Positions 40,762 through 51,557 of a stretch of DNA of 64,000 bases are shown here, one piece after another (position 1 is the stretch's first letter; each line of letters begins with the position of its first letter). Source of the DNA: Methylobacterium segetis (lineage in GTDB: Bacteria > Pseudomonadota > Alphaproteobacteria > Rhizobiales > Beijerinckiaceae). The stretch is from NCBI RefSeq assembly GCF_004348265.1, contig NZ_SMNT01000010.1, forward strand, positions 1-64,000. Reading direction: 5' to 3'. The notes below the pieces were generated by a model, which worked only from the letters and a program-made list of their open reading frames with translations, was not told the DNA's origin and ran no database searches. The translations under genes were made by a program, and so were the position numbers.

Positions 40762-42528
40762 TCACTCGGGCAGGGCGAACACGACGAGCGCGTCGCCCGT
40801 GCCGAAGCCGGACGCCTTGGTGAACGAGGAGCCGCCGGCCGCCACCGCCACGTACTGGCGCCCGTCGACCGCGTAGGTCACGGGCGGGCCGCTGATGCCG
40901 GCGCCGCACTGGAAGCGCCACAGCAGGCGGCCGTCCCGCGTGTCGTGGGCGTCGAGATGGCCGTCCTCCTCCCCGGAGAAGACGAGGCCCCCTGCCGTCG
41001 AGAGGGTGCCTCCCGACAGGCGGCTTCCCGCCTTCACCGACCACGCGATGGCGCCGCCCCGCGCGAGATCGACCGCGGTGAGCGTGCTGAAGGCGGGCTC
41101 GCCTCTCGCCTCGCTCGTCTCGGTGTAGCGGATCTCGGGCCGGCCGCCGGCCGCCGGCACGGTCTTGACCGTGTAGGTCGCGGCCCCGTGGCGGACCTGC
41201 GCGAAGGCCCGGCCGAGAGCCGCGTCGTAGGCGACCGGGTGCCATGAGATCGCGCCGAGGGGGCCGGGGCTCACGATCGTGCCCTCGGGGCTCGGGGGCG
41301 CGAACAGGTTCTTGTGCGCGATGACCGGCTCAGAGCGGGCCAGCAGGCGGCCCGTCGCCCGGTCGTGCACGTAGATCCAGCCCGTCTTGCTCGCCTGCGC
41401 CACCGCCTTCACGGGACCGTCCGGCGTCGGGTGGTCGAGGAGGAAGGGCGGGCTCGCCACGTCGTAGCCCCATTCCTCGTGAGGCACCTGCTGGAAGTGC
41501 CAGCGCAAGGCGCCCGTGCGCACGTCCAGCGCCACGAGGCTCATCGTGTAGAGGTTGTCGCCGGGGCGGGTCAGGCCGAAATTCTGGGGTGCCGGGTTGC
41601 CGGTGCCGAGGAAGATCAGGCCGGCCTGCGCGTCGTAGGCCGGGGTCATCCAGAGGGAGCCGCCGCCCACCCGCCACGCCTCGCGGTGCTGCGGGGCCGC
41701 CGCCTTCTCGGCGGCGATGTCCCGGTGGAGGGGCACGCCGTCCGGCGTCGTCGCGCGGAATTCGCCCTCCCAGCCGTCCTGCTTGGTGACGTACCAGCGC
41801 CAGCGCTCCTCCCCGGTCTTCGCGTCGTAGGCGGCGAGCCAGCCGCGGCGGCCGTAGCCGCCCTCGATGCCGACGACGGAGCCGCCGTCGAGGCCGCCCT
41901 TGTCGTCCTCGACGTGCAGCCCGTAGCCGGCGCCCGTGACGCCGACGATGACGAGCCCCTCGGCGACGAGCGGCGGCATCTTGAAGCCAAGGCGGCTGGA
42001 GCCCTGGACCGGCTTGTCGCCGAGCTGCGCCGAGAGGGCCGAGGCCGTCTCGGTCTCGCCCTCCTCAGGGCGCACCGCCTCCTTGTCCCAGACGAGCTTG
42101 CCCGTCTTCGCGTCGAGGGCGATGACCCGCCCGTCCATCGTCGCCTCGTAGACGAGGCCGTTCGCGACGGCGACGCCCCGGTTCGAGGGCGGCCCGAAGA
42201 TCTTCTCCGTTCGCGCCCTGTGGGTGTAGGTCCAGAGGACGCGGCCGGTTTTCGCCTCGAGCGCGGCGACGTGGTTGCCCGTCGCCGAGACGTACATCAC
42301 GCCCTCGACGATCACGGGCTCGGCCTGGAAGTAGCCGGTCACCCCGGTCTGGAAGATCCAGGCCGGCCGCAGCGCGGCGACGTTGCCGCGGTCGATCTGC
42401 GCGAGCCCGGCATGGTGCCGGTTCGAGGGATCGCCCCCGAACATCGGCCAATCCTCGGCGTGGGCGGGTCCGCAGACCGGGAAGGCGGCGGCGAGAGCCA
42501 GCGCCGCGGCGAGCCGGCCGCCCATCAT
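40762..42528 (-). CDS. PQQ-dependent dehydrogenase-family eight-bladed propeller protein
   Basis: A 588-residue periplasmic quinoprotein-type protein with a signal peptide (cleavage after PAHA, about residue 24). At least six Trp-docking motifs are visible (AKTGRVLWTY, AKTGKLVWDK, AKTGEERWRW, VRTGALRWHF, RDGRLLWRF). The segment GTGNPAPQNF ... RPGDNLYTMSLVALD is the conserved PQQ alcohol dehydrogenase region. No adjacent Cys-Cys pair of the methanol dehydrogenase type and no cytochrome c CxxCH motif were found, so it is not MxaF/XoxF-like in those respects. It overlaps the ankyrin gene by 4 bases and is probably co-translated. Substrate unknown. Confidence 0.85.
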   Translation of the reverse strand: MMGGRLAAALALAAAFPVCGPAHAEDWPMFGGDPSNRHHAGLAQIDRGNVAALRPAWIFQTGVTGYFQAEPVIVEGVMYVSATGNHVAALEAKTGRVLWTYTHRARTEKIFGPPSNRGVAVANGLVYEATMDGRVIALDAKTGKLVWDKEAVRPEEGETETASALSAQLGDKPVQGSSRLGFKMPPLVAEGLVIVGVTGAGYGLHVEDDKGGLDGGSVVGIEGGYGRRGWLAAYDAKTGEERWRWYVTKQDGWEGEFRATTPDGVPLHRDIAAEKAAAPQHREAWRVGGGSLWMTPAYDAQAGLIFLGTGNPAPQNFGLTRPGDNLYTMSLVALDVRTGALRWHFQQVPHEEWGYDVASPPFLLDHPTPDGPVKAVAQASKTGWIYVHDRATGRLLARSEPVIAHKNLFAPPSPEGTIVSPGPLGAISWHPVAYDAALGRAFAQVRHGAATYTVKTVPAAGGRPEIRYTETSEARGEPAFSTLTAVDLARGGAIAWSVKAGSRLSGGTLSTAGGLVFSGEEDGHLDAHDTRDGRLLWRFQCGAGISGPPVTYAVDGRQYVAVAAGGSSFTKASGFGTGDALVVFALPE

Positions 42529-43055
42529 GAGCGCACCGCCTTGGCGAGCTGGGCGGGGGTGTCGGCCGCGCCCATGGCCTGCGCCATCTCGGACGCGCTC
42601 TGGCCGCCCGCGTCGCGCCGGTCCGGATCCGCCCCGTGAGCGAGGAGCAGGTCGACCATCTCGGTCCGGTTGAACATCGCCGCGACCATCAGGGCGGTGC
42701 GGCCGCCCTCGCCGCTCCCGTCCACCGCCGCCCCGTGCGCGAGGAGGAGCCGGGCGATCCCGATCTCGCCCTTGAAGGCCGCGCCGGCCAGGGGCGTCTG
42801 GCCCCGGTCGTTGGCGAGTTCCGGGTCCCCGCCCGCCTCCAGGATCACGCGCGTGGCCTCCTCCTGCCCGTTATAGGCCGCGAGCATCAGCAGGCTGTCG
42901 CCCTTGTCGTTGCGCAGGTTCGCGGGCAGGCCCTGGCCGAACAGGGAAGCGAGGTCCTCCGCATGCCCCATCCGGGACATCTGGAAGACGCGGCCCGCGA
43001 AGGCGATGGTGTCGTCGTCGAGGGTCCGGGGCGGGGTGTCGGGAGCGTCGGGCAT
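42525..43055 (-). CDS. Ankyrin-repeat protein
   Basis: A 176-residue protein with about four ankyrin repeats from residue 48 on: KGDSLLMLAAYNGQEEATRV, RGQTPLAGAAFKGEIGIARL, GRTALMVAAMFNRTEMVDLL and the partial QSASEMAQAMGA. No signal peptide is seen, so it should be cytoplasmic, whereas its operon partner is periplasmic. Ankyrin repeats bind proteins; the partner is unknown. Its TGA overlaps the ATG of the dehydrogenase gene (ATGA). Confidence 0.88.
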   Translation of the reverse strand: MPDAPDTPPRTLDDDTIAFAGRVFQMSRMGHAEDLASLFGQGLPANLRNDKGDSLLMLAAYNGQEEATRVILEAGGDPELANDRGQTPLAGAAFKGEIGIARLLLAHGAAVDGSGEGGRTALMVAAMFNRTEMVDLLLAHGADPDRRDAGGQSASEMAQAMGAADTPAQLAKAVRS

Positions 43056-43551
43056 CGAGGTCTCGGATCAGGAAGAACGCCCGCGCATCTGGGACTCGAC
43101 GCATCACCTGTCCAGCGCTCGCGCATCACGCTTCGACGCGGGCGCAACCGGACCCGCCGCTCGCGGCGGCGGGCACGCGGTGGAGCCGATACTGATGCGG
43201 CATGGGGCGAAACCGCCCAGGAACGGAATCTTTTCAGTCTACAGCGTCATGCTCAAGCAAAACCTGCCCCCGCCGGAACAACCTGAACAAAAGTTCGGCT
43301 CCGCCGCTTGCTTCGAACACATTTCGCGCTTATCATATGTTAACTGTGATCGCTTACCGGCGCAGCATGGATCGGACGCGCCGGGCTTGGTCCTGCGTTT
43401 CGCCCCGAGGCGCGACTGGAAGCGCTCGCAAACCTTGTGAGGCCGGCGCCAGAACTGTGGCTGCGAAGCGGGACGGCGCGGATTTCTCGGAGGCTCGACG
43501 CGCCAAGCCGAGGCTTGAGAGAGACCGAAACACGACGCCTGTGAGCATCGC
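43056..43551. other. Divergent intergenic region between ankyrin and PAS-HTH genes
   Basis: 496 bases, with the part 43220-43370 clearly richer in A and T than the genes around it. It carries a good promoter-like pair on the plus strand (listed separately). Short open frames cross it on both strands but none has a ribosome site, a known motif or plausible composition. No structured RNA was recognised; the leader before the PAS-HTH gene is about 210 bases. Confidence 0.5.
43308..43336 (+). promoter_or_regulatory. Candidate promoter of the PAS-HTH tandem genes
   Basis: TTGCTT (43308-43313), a 17-base spacer and TATCAT (43331-43336). Among the better sigma-70-like matches in this GC-rich window, about 215 bases before the first regulator gene. 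Confidence 0.4.
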
Positions 43552-44598
43552 ATGCGGGACGACGCACTGAACCGAGCCTCTATCGCCCCGACGGGGCTCG
43601 CCTTCTCCTCGCGCGAGTTCCTGCGGCTCATCGAGAGCTGCGGATTGACCGGGACGTGGGGTTGGACCTTCGCCACGAACGAGCAGGTCTGGTCCCCCGG
43701 GCTCTACCGGATTCTCGGCCTGGACCCGAGCCGCGTGCGCCCGAGCTACGATTACTTCCTCAGCCTCGTCCATCCCGACGACCGCTCCGAGATCGAGACC
43801 ACGACGCAGGTGATGCAGGACGGCATCCTGCACGACCACACCTACCGGCTGATCCGTCCGGACGGGTCGCTCCGGATCCTGTCCGGCCGCGGCGAGGTCT
43901 ACCTCACAGCCGACGGGCGGCCGCGGGCCGCGGCCGGGATCGTCCTCGACGTGACGGGCCAGGAACAGCTCGCCCGCGCCCAGGCCGCGGAGCGGCGCCG
44001 GAAGCAGGCGCTGTTCGAGCAGGCCGGCGTGATCACGCACACCCTGCCGCCCGTGCTGGCCGAGGGCGAGACGCCCGACCTCGCCACCCTGACGGGCCTC
44101 TCCAGCGCCGCGGTCGGGGCCGCGGTCGGGGCTGGCGGGGAGCCGGGGGAGCACGCGCTCTGGCGCGAGGTGCTGGAGGCCGGTTTCCGCAGCGGCAACA
44201 CCTTCACCTCGATCGGGACACTCGCCCTGCCCGACGGGCGCCGGGAGCGTTTCCAGACGACGCTCGTGCCGATGCGCGACGTCGACGGCTCCATCCTGGA
44301 ATGGATCAGCCTGATGCAGCCGGCCAGCCCCGAATCCGATCTGCGCGCCGAGGAGAGCGCCGAGTTCGACGAGGGGATCGAGGGGTACCACCTGCGGGCG
44401 GCGCGCGGCCTGCTCGACTGGTCGATGACGGATCTCGCCAATGCCAGCAACCTCTCCTTCTCGACGATCCGGCGCCTCGAGGAGAACGCGGAAGGGCCGG
44501 CCAACCGCTCCCGCCGGGCCGTGATCTCCGCCCTGCGCGAGGCCGGGATCCGGTTCCCGCGGATCGACGGTTCCTCCATCGCGGTGGCCAAGGTCTGA
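43552..44598 (+). CDS. PAS-HTH regulator, tandem copy 1
   Basis: A 348-residue protein. A PAS domain lies at about 25-140 (WGWTFATNEQVWSPGLYRIL, LVHPDDRSEIE, RLIRPDGSLRILSGRGE, PAC-like GIVLDVTGQEQL). The middle (about 160-265) may be a second, divergent sensory domain. The C-terminus (about 282-340) is an XRE-like helix-turn-helix: [20 protein letters not shown], then [10 protein letters not shown] and REAGIRFPRID. No kinase or GGDEF domain is present, so it is a one-component sensor-regulator. The next gene is a close paralogue eight bases downstream. The ligand is not predictable. Confidence 0.78.
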   Translation: MRDDALNRASIAPTGLAFSSREFLRLIESCGLTGTWGWTFATNEQVWSPGLYRILGLDPSRVRPSYDYFLSLVHPDDRSEIETTTQVMQDGILHDHTYRLIRPDGSLRILSGRGEVYLTADGRPRAAAGIVLDVTGQEQLARAQAAERRRKQALFEQAGVITHTLPPVLAEGETPDLATLTGLSSAAVGAAVGAGGEPGEHALWREVLEAGFRSGNTFTSIGTLALPDGRRERFQTTLVPMRDVDGSILEWISLMQPASPESDLRAEESAEFDEGIEGYHLRAARGLLDWSMTDLANASNLSFSTIRRLEENAEGPANRSRRAVISALREAGIRFPRIDGSSIAVAKV

Positions 44599-44606
44599 GG
44601 CCTGCC

Positions 44607-45635
44607 GTGAACGGCCCCGTCACCGCCTCGGACCTCGCCTTCTCCTCCCGCGAGTTCCTGCGGATGATCGAGGAGTTTGGTCTGACGGGCCATTGGGGCT
44701 GGACCTTCGCGACGGACGAGCACGTCTGGTCGCCTGGGCTGTTCCGGCTGCTCGGGCTCGAGCCTGGACTCGTGCGGCCGAGCTACGACCTGCTCCTCCA
44801 CCTCGTTCATCCCGAGGATCGCGCATCGATCGACACCGCCGCCGAGGTGCGGGCGGGGCTGGCGCGCGAGGCCACCGTACGGGTGATCCGGCCGGACGGC
44901 GCGATGCGCATCCTGTCGATCCGGGCCGAGATCTACGTCGCGCCGGACGGGCGCCCGCAGGCAGCCGCCGGGATCGTGCTGAACGTCACCGACCGCGAGG
45001 CGCTGGTCCGCGCGCGGGCTGTCGAGAGGCGGCGGAAATGGGCCCTGTTCGAGCAGACCCGCTCCTTCACGTGCTCGGTCTCGAACTTCCCCGTCGGAAA
45101 TCTCCCTCACGAACTCAGTGTCCTGACCGGCCTGCCTCCGGAAATCTTGCGCTCAGAGCGTGGCCTCATCATCGCCAGGGAGGAACGAGCCTTCTGGATC
45201 GCGTTCGGGAACGAGTACTTTCCGTCCGGCAAGCCCTTCATCGCCAAGCCGCTTCTGAAACTGGCAGATGGGCAGACGGCCCGCTTCCGCACCGTCGTCG
45301 TTCCGACGCTGAATGCGGATGGCGGGATCGAGAGGTGGGACAATTTCGCGTTCCCGGCGGATCGCCAGGCCATGCTGCCGACCGATGATCTGCTGCGCGC
45401 GCTGCAGGAGCGGGTCGGCGGCCATCACATGCGAGCGGCCCGTGGCCTCCTCGACTGGTCGATGCACGATCTGGCTGCGGCGAGCGGCCTGTCCTTCTCG
45501 ACGATCCGACGACTTGAGGAGGATGTCGAGGCTACCGCCGCGCGGTCGCGCCACACGGCGGTCGCGGCGCTCCGCGCCGCCGGCATCCGCTTCTCGCTCC
45601 TCGACGGCGGTGCCATCGCCGTCGCCAAGGTCTGA
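44607..45635 (+). CDS. PAS-HTH regulator, tandem copy 2
   Basis: A 342-residue paralogue of the preceding gene, starting at GTG 44607. The PAS part is very similar ([48 protein letters not shown]), and so is the C-terminal helix-turn-helix ([32 protein letters not shown]). The middle differs much more ([20 protein letters not shown]). This pattern suggests a duplication followed by divergence of the second sensory region while DNA recognition was kept. The eight-base gap implies one transcript. uvrB follows after 47 bases on the same strand. Confidence 0.78.
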
Positions 45636-45682
45636 CGGGGGCTGCCCTTTCCGGCGCGGGCCGCAGCCGCCATATTCGGGGT

Positions 45683-48391
45683 ATGCCGATTCCCAAGAAG
45701 CCCCGCCACACCTCGGGCAAGGCCGAGAAGCCCGAGCTGAAGCCGCTCGACCCCTTCCTGGCCGAACTCCTCAACCCGGCCCTGAACCGCAACCGCCTGC
45801 CGGAGCCGCCGCCGGCGAGACCCGGCGAGCCGAAGCGGAAGGGCCGCGCGAAGAAGGCCGATCCGGCCGCCGCGACGGGCTTCGGCGAGGCGCCCCAGGC
45901 GAGCTACGCGCATGGCAGCGCGGCCGATGTCGACCCGCGCCTCGCCCAGGCGCTCGGCCTGCGCGACGGCGAGGACGGGCCGGCGCCCGAGGGCGCGGTC
46001 GAGGACGGGCAGACCTCGCTCGCCGCGGACGGCGTCTCGGCCACGGTCGACGCCCTCCAGCGGCTTCTGACCGAGGGCAACCCGCTCTTCAAGGACGGGC
46101 AGACCTGGGTGCCGCACCGGCCGGAGCGCCCGCAGAAATCGGAGGGCGGCGTCCCCTTCCGGCTGAAATCCGAGTTCACCCCCGCGGGCGACCAGCCGAC
46201 CGCGATCGCCGAGCTCGTCCAGGGCGTGAAGGCGGCCGAGCGCGACCAGGTGCTGCTCGGCGTCACGGGCTCCGGCAAGACCTTCACCATGGCCAAGGTG
46301 ATCGAGGCGACGCAGCGCCCCGCGCTCATCCTCGCGCCGAACAAGACGCTCGCCGCGCAGCTCTACGGCGAGTTCAAGAGCTTCTTCCCCGACAACGCGG
46401 TCGAGTACTTCGTCTCCTACTACGATTATTACCAGCCGGAGGCCTACGTCCCGCGCTCGGACACGTTCATCGAGAAGGAGAGCTCGATCAACGAGCAGAT
46501 CGACCGCATGCGCCACTCCGCGACCCGCGCCCTCCTGGAGCGGGACGACGTGATCATCGTCGCCTCCGTCTCGTGCATCTACGGCATCGGCTCGGTCGAG
46601 ACCTACACGGCGATGTCGTTCACCGTGAGCCTCGGCGAGAAGATCGAGCAGCGCCAGCTCATCGCCGACCTCGTGGCGCTCCAGTACAAGCGCATCCAGT
46701 CGGATTTCGCCCGCGGCACCTTCCGGGTGCGCGGCGACGTGATCGAGCTGTGGCCGGCCCACTTGGAGGATCGCGGCTGGCGGATCGGGCTGTTCGGCGA
46801 CGAGATCGAGAGCATCGTCGAGTTCGACCCGCTGACGGGCAAGAAGATCAACGAGCTGAAGTTCGTGAAGGTCTACGCCAACAGCCACTACGTCACGCCG
46901 CGCCCGACGCTGCAGCAGGCGATCAAGGGCATCAAGCACGAGCTGAAGGGCCGCGTCGAGGAGCTGACCCGGATGGGCCGCCTGATCGAGGCGCAGCGCA
47001 TCGAGCAGCGCTGCACCTTCGACATCGAGATGATCGAGGCGACGGGCTCCTGCAACGGCATCGAGAACTACTCGCGCTATCTCACGGGCCGCAAGCCCGG
47101 CGAGCCGCCGCCGACCCTGTTCGAGTACCTGCCCGACAACGCCCTCGTCTTCACCGACGAGAGCCACGTCACCGTGCCCCAGATCGGCGGCATGTACCGG
47201 GGCGACTTCCGCCGCAAGGCGACGCTCGCCGAGTACGGGTTCCGCCTGCCCTCCTGCCTCGACAACCGCCCCTTGCGCTTCGAGGAATGGGACGCGATGC
47301 GCCCGCAATCGGTCCACGTCTCGGCGACGCCGGGCAAGTGGGAGATGGAGCGCACGGCGGGCGTCTTCGCCGAGCAGGTCATCCGCCCGACCGGCCTCGT
47401 CGATCCCGTGATCGAGGTGCGCCCGGCCCGAAGCCAGGTCGACGACCTGCTGGGCGAGGTGCGCGAGGTGGCGCAGGCCGGCTACCGGACGCTGGTGACG
47501 ACGCTGACCAAGCGCATGGCCGAGGACCTGACCGAGTACCTGCACGAGAACAACGTGCGCGTGCGCTACATGCACTCGGACATCGACACGCTGGAGCGGA
47601 TCGAGATCATCCGCGATCTCCGGCTCGGCGCCTTCGACGTGCTGATCGGCATCAACCTGCTGCGCGAGGGTCTCGACATCCCCGAATGCGCCCTCGTCGC
47701 CATCCTCGATGCCGACAAGGAGGGCTTCCTCCGCTCCGAGACCTCGCTCGTCCAGACGATCGGCCGCGCCGCCCGCAACGCGGATGCCCGCTGCATCCTC
47801 TACGCCGATCAGGTCACGGGCTCGATGGAGCGGGCGATGGCCGAGACCGAGCGGCGGCGCCAGAAGCAGCTCGCCTACAATGCCGAGCACGGCATCACCC
47901 CCCAATCGGTCAAGCGCAACATCGGCGACATCCTGGAGAGCGTCTACGAGCGCGACCACGTGCGGGTCGATACGGGGCTGGCCAAGGACGCCGTCACCGT
48001 CGGCCACAACATGAAGGCCGTGCTGGCGGATCTCGAGAAGCGGATGCGGGCGGCCGCGGCCGATCTCGATTTCGAGGAGGCGGCGCGCCTGCGCGACGAG
48101 CTGAAGCGGCTCCAGGCGACCGAACTCCTCGTCGCCGACGACCCGATGGCCCGGCAGGCGGACGTGGAGCGCGAGGCCGGCCGCTACGGCGAGCGCGGCG
48201 GACGTGGGCGGCCCTCCGGCGGCAGCCGCATCGCCAAGCCGAGCCTCGACGACATGGGACCGGGCACCGACCGCGAAGTGCCCGTGGGCGGCCCGCCGCC
48301 CGCGTGGCAGGAACGGCCGAAGGCCCGCTCGACGCAGGGGATCGGCGGCCAGCGCCCGAAATACAAGGGCCGCGGCTCGCGGGACCGCTGA
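45683..48391 (+). CDS. uvrB: Excinuclease ABC subunit UvrB with long N-terminal extension
   Basis: UvrB verifies DNA damage delivered by UvrA and loads UvrC in nucleotide excision repair. The 902-residue protein has Walker A GVTGSGKT at 193-200, the beta-hairpin [20 protein letters not shown], the helicase motifs through [13 protein letters not shown], and the C-terminal UVR motif ([16 protein letters not shown]) that binds UvrC. In E. coli the Walker A is at residue 39, so about 150 extra residues precede the core here, rich in Pro, Lys and Ala. A Gly/Arg-rich tail of about 75 residues follows the UVR motif. The core looks fully functional. Confidence 0.96.
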
Positions 48392-51412: not shown

Positions 51413-51557
51413 CCCCCCTTGCACGGCTGCCGGGGTGTTAACACAGGGTTCCCGCGCTGGCGAGAGCCGGTTCACGAACCGTTCATCCCTGTGGTTTTCC
51501 GAACGTTTTCCTCGGGTTGTACCGGGGCCGGAGGATGCGCCGGGGGAGCCCCGCCGG

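Follow-up and report, generated by a model that had tools for sequence, protein, structure and literature searches.

How did two similar regulator genes come to stand side by side in front of uvrB in Methylobacterium segetis, and are they a young pair or the remains of an older row of genes? The genes lie on the plus strand of the window, i.e., the whole stretch of 64,000 nucleotides that was analyzed. Gene A (43552..44598) begins with ATG and encodes 348 amino acids. Gene B (44607..45635) begins with GTG and encodes 342 amino acids; a later ATG at 44664 is a possible alternative start. The initial annotation described two same-strand genes eight bases apart, and the open reading frames agree with this (the gap is 44599..44606). 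Since only 8 bases separate them, A and B are probably co-transcribed. The array is flanked on the left by an ankyrin-repeat gene on the minus strand (42525..43055, Pfam Ank_2 109.4 bits) and on the right by uvrB on the plus strand (45683..48391, Pfam UvrB_inter, UvrB and UVR). The intergenic stretch between A and the divergent ankyrin gene (43056..43551) presumably holds the promoter region of A. Together with a PQQ-dehydrogenase-type gene (Pfam), which it overlaps by four bases, the ankyrin gene occupies 40762-43055, and the overlap suggests translational coupling of the two. The same pair of genes adjoins the array site in three other Methylobacterium genomes, designated here G019, G006 and G030.

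The initial annotation described A and B as a PAS domain fused to an XRE-like helix-turn-helix (HTH), with a variable region between them. The PAS and the HTH were correctly recognized; what was missed is that the middle region is itself a second PAS domain. The predicted architecture of both proteins is PAS-PAS-XRE, in which the PAS of the earlier description is PAS1 and its middle region is PAS2. All parts lie on the plus strand. PAS1 of A covers residues 20-134 (43609..43953) and carries an HP-D...R signature; it is marked by a PAS_3 match at 46-130, by the strands of the AF2 model and by conservation in the family. PAS2 of A covers residues 159-258 (44026..44325), as indicated by a PAS_4 match at 196-255, the family profile and AF2, and the XRE-type HTH covers residues 278-330 (44383..44541), where AF2 places helices and where HTH_3 is matched across the family. 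The corresponding parts of B are PAS1 at residues 14-127 (44646..44987; PAS_3 at 40-123 and AF2), PAS2 at residues 153-251 (45063..45359; AF2 and structural alignments to LOV chains, this domain having no Pfam PAS match of its own) and the XRE-type HTH at residues 272-324 (45420..45578; HTH_3 at 276-306 and AF2).

Two PAS folds per chain were found in both A and B when Pfam, profile, AF2 and structure searches were taken together. In Pfam, PAS_3 (54.9 bits) and PAS_4 (23.3 bits, cut-off 23.1) are above their cut-offs in A, and HTH_3 (20.8 bits) is below its cut-off of 23.0. Both PAS_3 (42.0 bits) and HTH_3 (23.3 bits) are above their cut-offs in B. HTH_3 is matched in 34 of 35 family members at E<=0.1. 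The mean pLDDT of the AF2 models is 84.6 for A and 87.6 for B. In the model of B, residues 153-251 follow the PAS-like order of strand, helices and strands, the second strand not being clear, and three LOV chains align with this part of the model at 140-252, 144-252 and 148-254 (Z 11.4-12.0). A profile built from 35 family members matches a PAS domain of the aerotaxis receptor Aer at positions 149-261 (8dik, E 3.6e-5) and 6hmj at positions 161-261 (E 3e-7); the middle stretch of the family profile taken alone does not pass. For both proteins, Pfam lists PAS and HTH families alone, with no kinase or other output domain among them. The NCBIfam rows for A and B are either HTH models or the PAS portions of kinases and cyclases, and no row reaches its cut-off.

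How different are the two proteins from region to region? The ends had been called nearly alike and the middle strongly different. In a global alignment of A and B, 92 of 139 positions are identical in the PAS part (66%) and 49 of 69 in the HTH end (71%), compared with 38 of 121 in the middle (31%) and 180 of 338 over the whole length (53%). The contrast is thus real, but nearly alike overstates identities of 66-71%. Pairwise identities in the family have medians of 46.4% for PAS1 (8911 pairs), 25.2% for the middle (8778 pairs) and 59.4% for the HTH (8777 pairs) over 134 rows, a broken gene included, and the middle is as similar as PAS1 in just 268 of 8645 family pairs. When 257 pairs with a PAS1 identity of 62-70% are compared, the A-B middle falls at the 23rd percentile. 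By these comparisons the pattern of conserved ends and a fast middle is a property of the whole family and is not peculiar to A and B. The dN/dS values of orthologue pairs bear out the proposal that the sensing region diverges fastest: the values are 0.47 for the middle and 0.08 for PAS1 between A and its G019 orthologue, and 0.70 and 0.28 between B and its G030 orthologue, all below 1. They are compatible with weaker constraint on PAS2 or with its diversification in general. A domain swap of the middle was also considered and rejected; A keeps one nearest orthologue through PAS1, the middle and the HTH, and B likewise keeps its own, which gives no sign of a mosaic.

That A and B are paralogues was confirmed. 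The further proposal, a recent tandem duplication in the lineage of the window with a rapidly diverging sensing region, draws on the adjacency of the genes across an 8-base gap and on their similarity, which just 3.6% (PAS) and 10.2% (HTH) of family pairs reach. However, nearer relatives of each gene exist elsewhere. In an IQ-TREE tree of 85 rows (84 of 133 family proteins and the broken G019 gene), A joins G019_C1_3365557 (100/96) and then G006_C24_160784 (100/99). B joins G030_C23_155217 (100/99) and next a group that contains G006_163920 together with four genes lacking a link to uvrB (99/99). The two genes fall into separate starred groups. Grouping with different orthologues in other species is the pattern that the initial annotation had itself named as the sign of an old divergence. 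A and B are 82% and 68% identical to their own orthologues in other Methylobacterium species, compared with 53% to each other. Forcing A and B to be sisters lowered the log-likelihood by 135.6 and was rejected (p-AU 3.9e-8), and the dS between A and B (0.89) is about twice that between A and its G019 orthologue (0.47) or B and its G030 orthologue (0.48). Joining the three A-type and two B-type genes in one old clade was not rejected (p-AU 0.104). Judged by trees and synonymous divergence, the A/B duplication is old and not recent, and a recent event in this lineage is so improbable that it can hardly be entertained.

The genome of the window holds seven full-length copies of the family. At E<=1e-40, 66 of the 99 genus genomes searched contain the gene family, and a single genome has as many as 10 matches (G006, one of them partial and one broken). 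Across the taxonomic family, 9 of 199 genomes have it at E<=1e-35, and 5 of the 9 belong to the genus itself; across the order the figure is 8 of 199 at E<=1e-40, 2 of the 8 again being of the genus. The view that this PAS-XRE type is uncommon therefore applies outside the genus but not within it. Among the best 80 loci, relatives beyond the genus come from Rhizobium, Bradyrhizobium, Devosia and others and show approximately 24-37% identity in the best segment; the named genus members include M. variabile, M. frigidaeris, M. soli and M. planeticum. A search of literature titles and abstract openings turned up, among the matches listed, none that names such a family.

The protein set used here has 133 full or nearly full-length sequences from 49 genomes. 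The genus search gave 150 matches, of which 117 are in the set, 30 were left out and 3 are broken G019 copies; 26 of the 30 left out are single-copy in their genomes with 34-42% identity. The remaining 16 proteins of the set come from further searches beyond that genus search. Partial pieces were excluded (14 rows, several of which show one piece in more than one locus or are truncated where a locus ends), with the exception of one that had passed a laxer limit; the broken G019 array gene was restored for the alignments and trees. Family genes stand in tandem rows of 2-4 both next to uvrB (L041) and elsewhere in the genus (L042, L043, L045-L049), and two more frameshifted family copies occur in G019 (L128, L129). 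The best reading of A and B is that they are ordinary one-component regulators of an apparently unstudied family with lively gain and loss.

Variations in the number of family genes between the ankyrin gene and uvrB have been observed among related genomes. There are two in the window, two in G019 (the second broken), four in G006 (the first broken), two in G030 and none in a further genome, G022. The second array gene of G019 (L040:5455-6960) has an in-frame TAA and has lost its HTH end, the first array gene of G006 is broken by a TAG, and the array of G022 (L241:1230-1440) is reduced to an HTH remnant spread over more than one frame. The space before the A orthologue of G019 is approximately 400 bases shorter than in the window. 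In a FastTree uvrB tree of 30 genomes, the window, G019, G006, G030 and G022 form one clade (support 1.0), within which G022 pairs with the genome of the window (support 0.96). The gene order in G006 is A-D-C-B; the window retains A and B, G030 retains C and B, and G019 retains A and the broken gene. If the broken G019 gene is D, a consistent order A-D-C-B fits all five genomes; this identity was not rejected (p-AU 0.42), and the gene sits on a long branch and is not paired with D in the best tree.

Is this site then the remnant of one ancestral array, or has it been filled many times? We consider it likely that A and B, as regulators with PAS1, a helical linker, PAS2 and an XRE HTH, are survivors of an array that the ancestor of a small Methylobacterium clade already carried between the ankyrin gene and uvrB and that was pruned differently in each lineage. 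The synteny, the order and the broken copies suggest the pruning of an older array as the simplest story, the direction from many genes to few following from parsimony. A second explanation is a permissive landing site in front of uvrB, at which different family members arrived independently. In at least 17 genomes the gene immediately upstream of uvrB, on its strand, is a family member, and these genes belong to several distinct family groups in which they are mixed with unlinked ones. In 13 of the 17 genomes (G083 among them) a single family gene stands before uvrB, and the flank examined contains neither an ankyrin nor a PQQ gene. In the 8 single-gene uvrB loci that were aligned, the left neighbor is presumably the end of a LysR-type gene. 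The label of being linked to uvrB requires 8 changes on the tree, at least 7 of them by the starred branches, and because of this repeated arrival and repeated loss both have to be considered. However, the order of the array is consistent over four genomes of the clade of the window and orthologues keep their place in it. Repeated arrival is regarded here as a tentative and rather doubtful alternative to the pruning of an ancestral array.

Does the array control uvrB? The functional operon that the locus brings to mind, in which the array senses UV, light or oxidative conditions and controls the neighboring nucleotide-excision gene, has in its favor that family genes of several groups precede uvrB on the same strand in those 17 genomes, the distance from the last family gene to the uvrB ATG being 43-100 bases in the 16 genomes measured. 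Against it, the link is present in just 8 of 41 genomes compared, and uvrB was kept in G022 when the array decayed. Also, the promoter-like element that precedes uvrB is found in array and non-array genomes alike. In the window this element, CTTTCCGG-N14-GCCATAT (45647..45675, plus strand), ends 7 bases before the uvrB ATG; the window holds one copy of it, and 0 of 100 shuffles have any. Where a family gene precedes uvrB, a looser form (CTTTCC, then CATAT) is present in 17 of 17 loci; where none does, it is present in 5 of 26. The uvrB start could be aligned in 21 of these 26 loci, and in them CCATAT (20 of 21) or CCATAC (1 of 21) stands exactly 7 bases before the ATG, the upstream parts varying. 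Since the element is kept with and without the array, uvrB most likely runs mainly from a promoter of its own whether an array is there or not, and its message is perhaps leaderless. A scan for sigma-70-type promoters in 43000-45800 gave 0 matches. SOS-type boxes (GTTC-N7-GTTC or GAAC-N7-GAAC) were found neither in 42400-46200 nor in 32 other loci (196,619 bases), and for the latter reason their absence at the array carries little weight against the operon. The script used does find a planted box and one at window position 51470, the single GTTC-N7-GTTC match of the whole window, near genes that we take to be those for acyl carrier protein and fab enzymes. The array may co-regulate uvrB, although the observations do not require it, and the functional operon as a whole is judged unlikely.

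Which known regulators do A and B resemble? In most proteins that combine PAS with a LuxR-type HTH, the PAS domain is N-terminal, according to the available part of PMC13060918. Like the PAS-LuxR proteins of the EL222 and FG214 type, A and B carry a cytoplasmic PAS sensor and an HTH on one chain; unlike them, A and B have an HTH of the XRE/HTH_3 type and two PAS domains. Membership in the PAS-LuxR group was rejected, there being no GerE row for A or B in Pfam at E<=1 or among the 22 families in the 35 members at E<=0.1. The LOV flavin-adduct cysteine motif, searched as GRNCR, is present in 0 of 134 rows, and a LOV photoreceptor was likewise rejected. The whole model of A matches structures with tandem PAS domains, first among them that of FixL (PDB 8js5-8js7): 8js5_B is the top Foldseek row for A (E 3.7e-12, TMq 0.41), and the FixL tandem ranks third in the family-profile search (E 2.2e-16, over profile positions 17-211). 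Unlike A and B, FixL is a histidine kinase. The heme histidine of FixL-type heme PAS domains is located in helix F-alpha (PMC10468136, available part). In the family alignment, the only histidines conserved in at least 90% are H74 of the HP-D motif and H280 of the HTH; a further HTH column has His in 68 of 133 rows. An H(P)(D/E)D...R motif of PAS cluster 8 has been described, its role being given as unknown in the available part of the same source, and the family shows it: H74 and P75 are each present in 132 of 134 rows and D77 and R99 in 134 of 134, R99 being the presumed arginine of the motif. Like XRE/HTH_3 regulators, A and B have a C-terminal HTH that matches HTH_3 (above the cut-off in B, below it in A); unlike them, this HTH is fused to two PAS domains. 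PpsR and CrtJ of alphaproteobacteria resemble A and B in that a C-terminal HTH comes after several PAS domains; their HTH is of the Fis type, unlike that of A and B, and the likeness is one of description. CstR of M. extorquens, as presented in the available part of PMC13344952, is a receiver protein and hence no member of the family.

It was proposed in the initial annotation that A and B keep common DNA targets. The recognition helices are similar across the seven copies in the genome of the window, the most different being that of copy C41 (SFATIRKLEGE) and that of the C77 copy being among the similar ones, and a helix of the form LS(F/L)ST(I/V)RRLE is present in 84 of 134 rows. Shared targets for A and B are plausible from these helices and would extend to all seven copies; as the helices are similar in all of them, shared targets would not be special to this pair. 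A near-palindrome, TTATCATATGTTAA (12 of 14; 43330..43343, plus strand), lies at approximately -220 of A, and similar elements precede the first array gene of G006 and of G030. It is a candidate operator site or promoter part, a function suggested by its conservation. With up to one mismatch, TTATCNTATGTTA is found at 2 places in the genome, as many as the control (2), and just one of these precedes a family gene. For ATCNNATGTTA, the upstream regions of 3 of 133 family genes contain it, and all three are the first genes of uvrB arrays. An operator common to the paralogues was not found by 6-8-mer enrichment in 133 upstream regions or in the footprints of six orthologue groups. The enriched 6-8-mers appear to come largely from the coding ends of the preceding gene or from close orthologues, and the upstream footprints of the six groups showed no evident common site among the matches listed.

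We propose that each protein would dimerize through its PAS domains and linker helix, and that PAS2, perhaps with PAS1, may sense a small molecule or redox state. The change in signal would be passed on to the C-terminal HTH, which would bind an operator that may be common to A, B and the five remaining copies. The first site to be targeted would most likely be the promoter region of the family itself, upstream of A. A more speculative extension would be a Methylobacterium sensor panel of up to ten genes per genome (G006), with one DNA-reading module, diversified PAS2 domains and one operator type, in which members beside uvrB tie leaf sunlight or oxidative signals to DNA repair; we regard this as a long shot.

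The locus shows that similar neighboring genes with a divergent middle can mimic a fresh duplication, where the history is one of gains and losses in an old family of many copies. With their similar recognition helices, the seven copies would provide a clean test of operator competition among paralogues that differ in PAS2.
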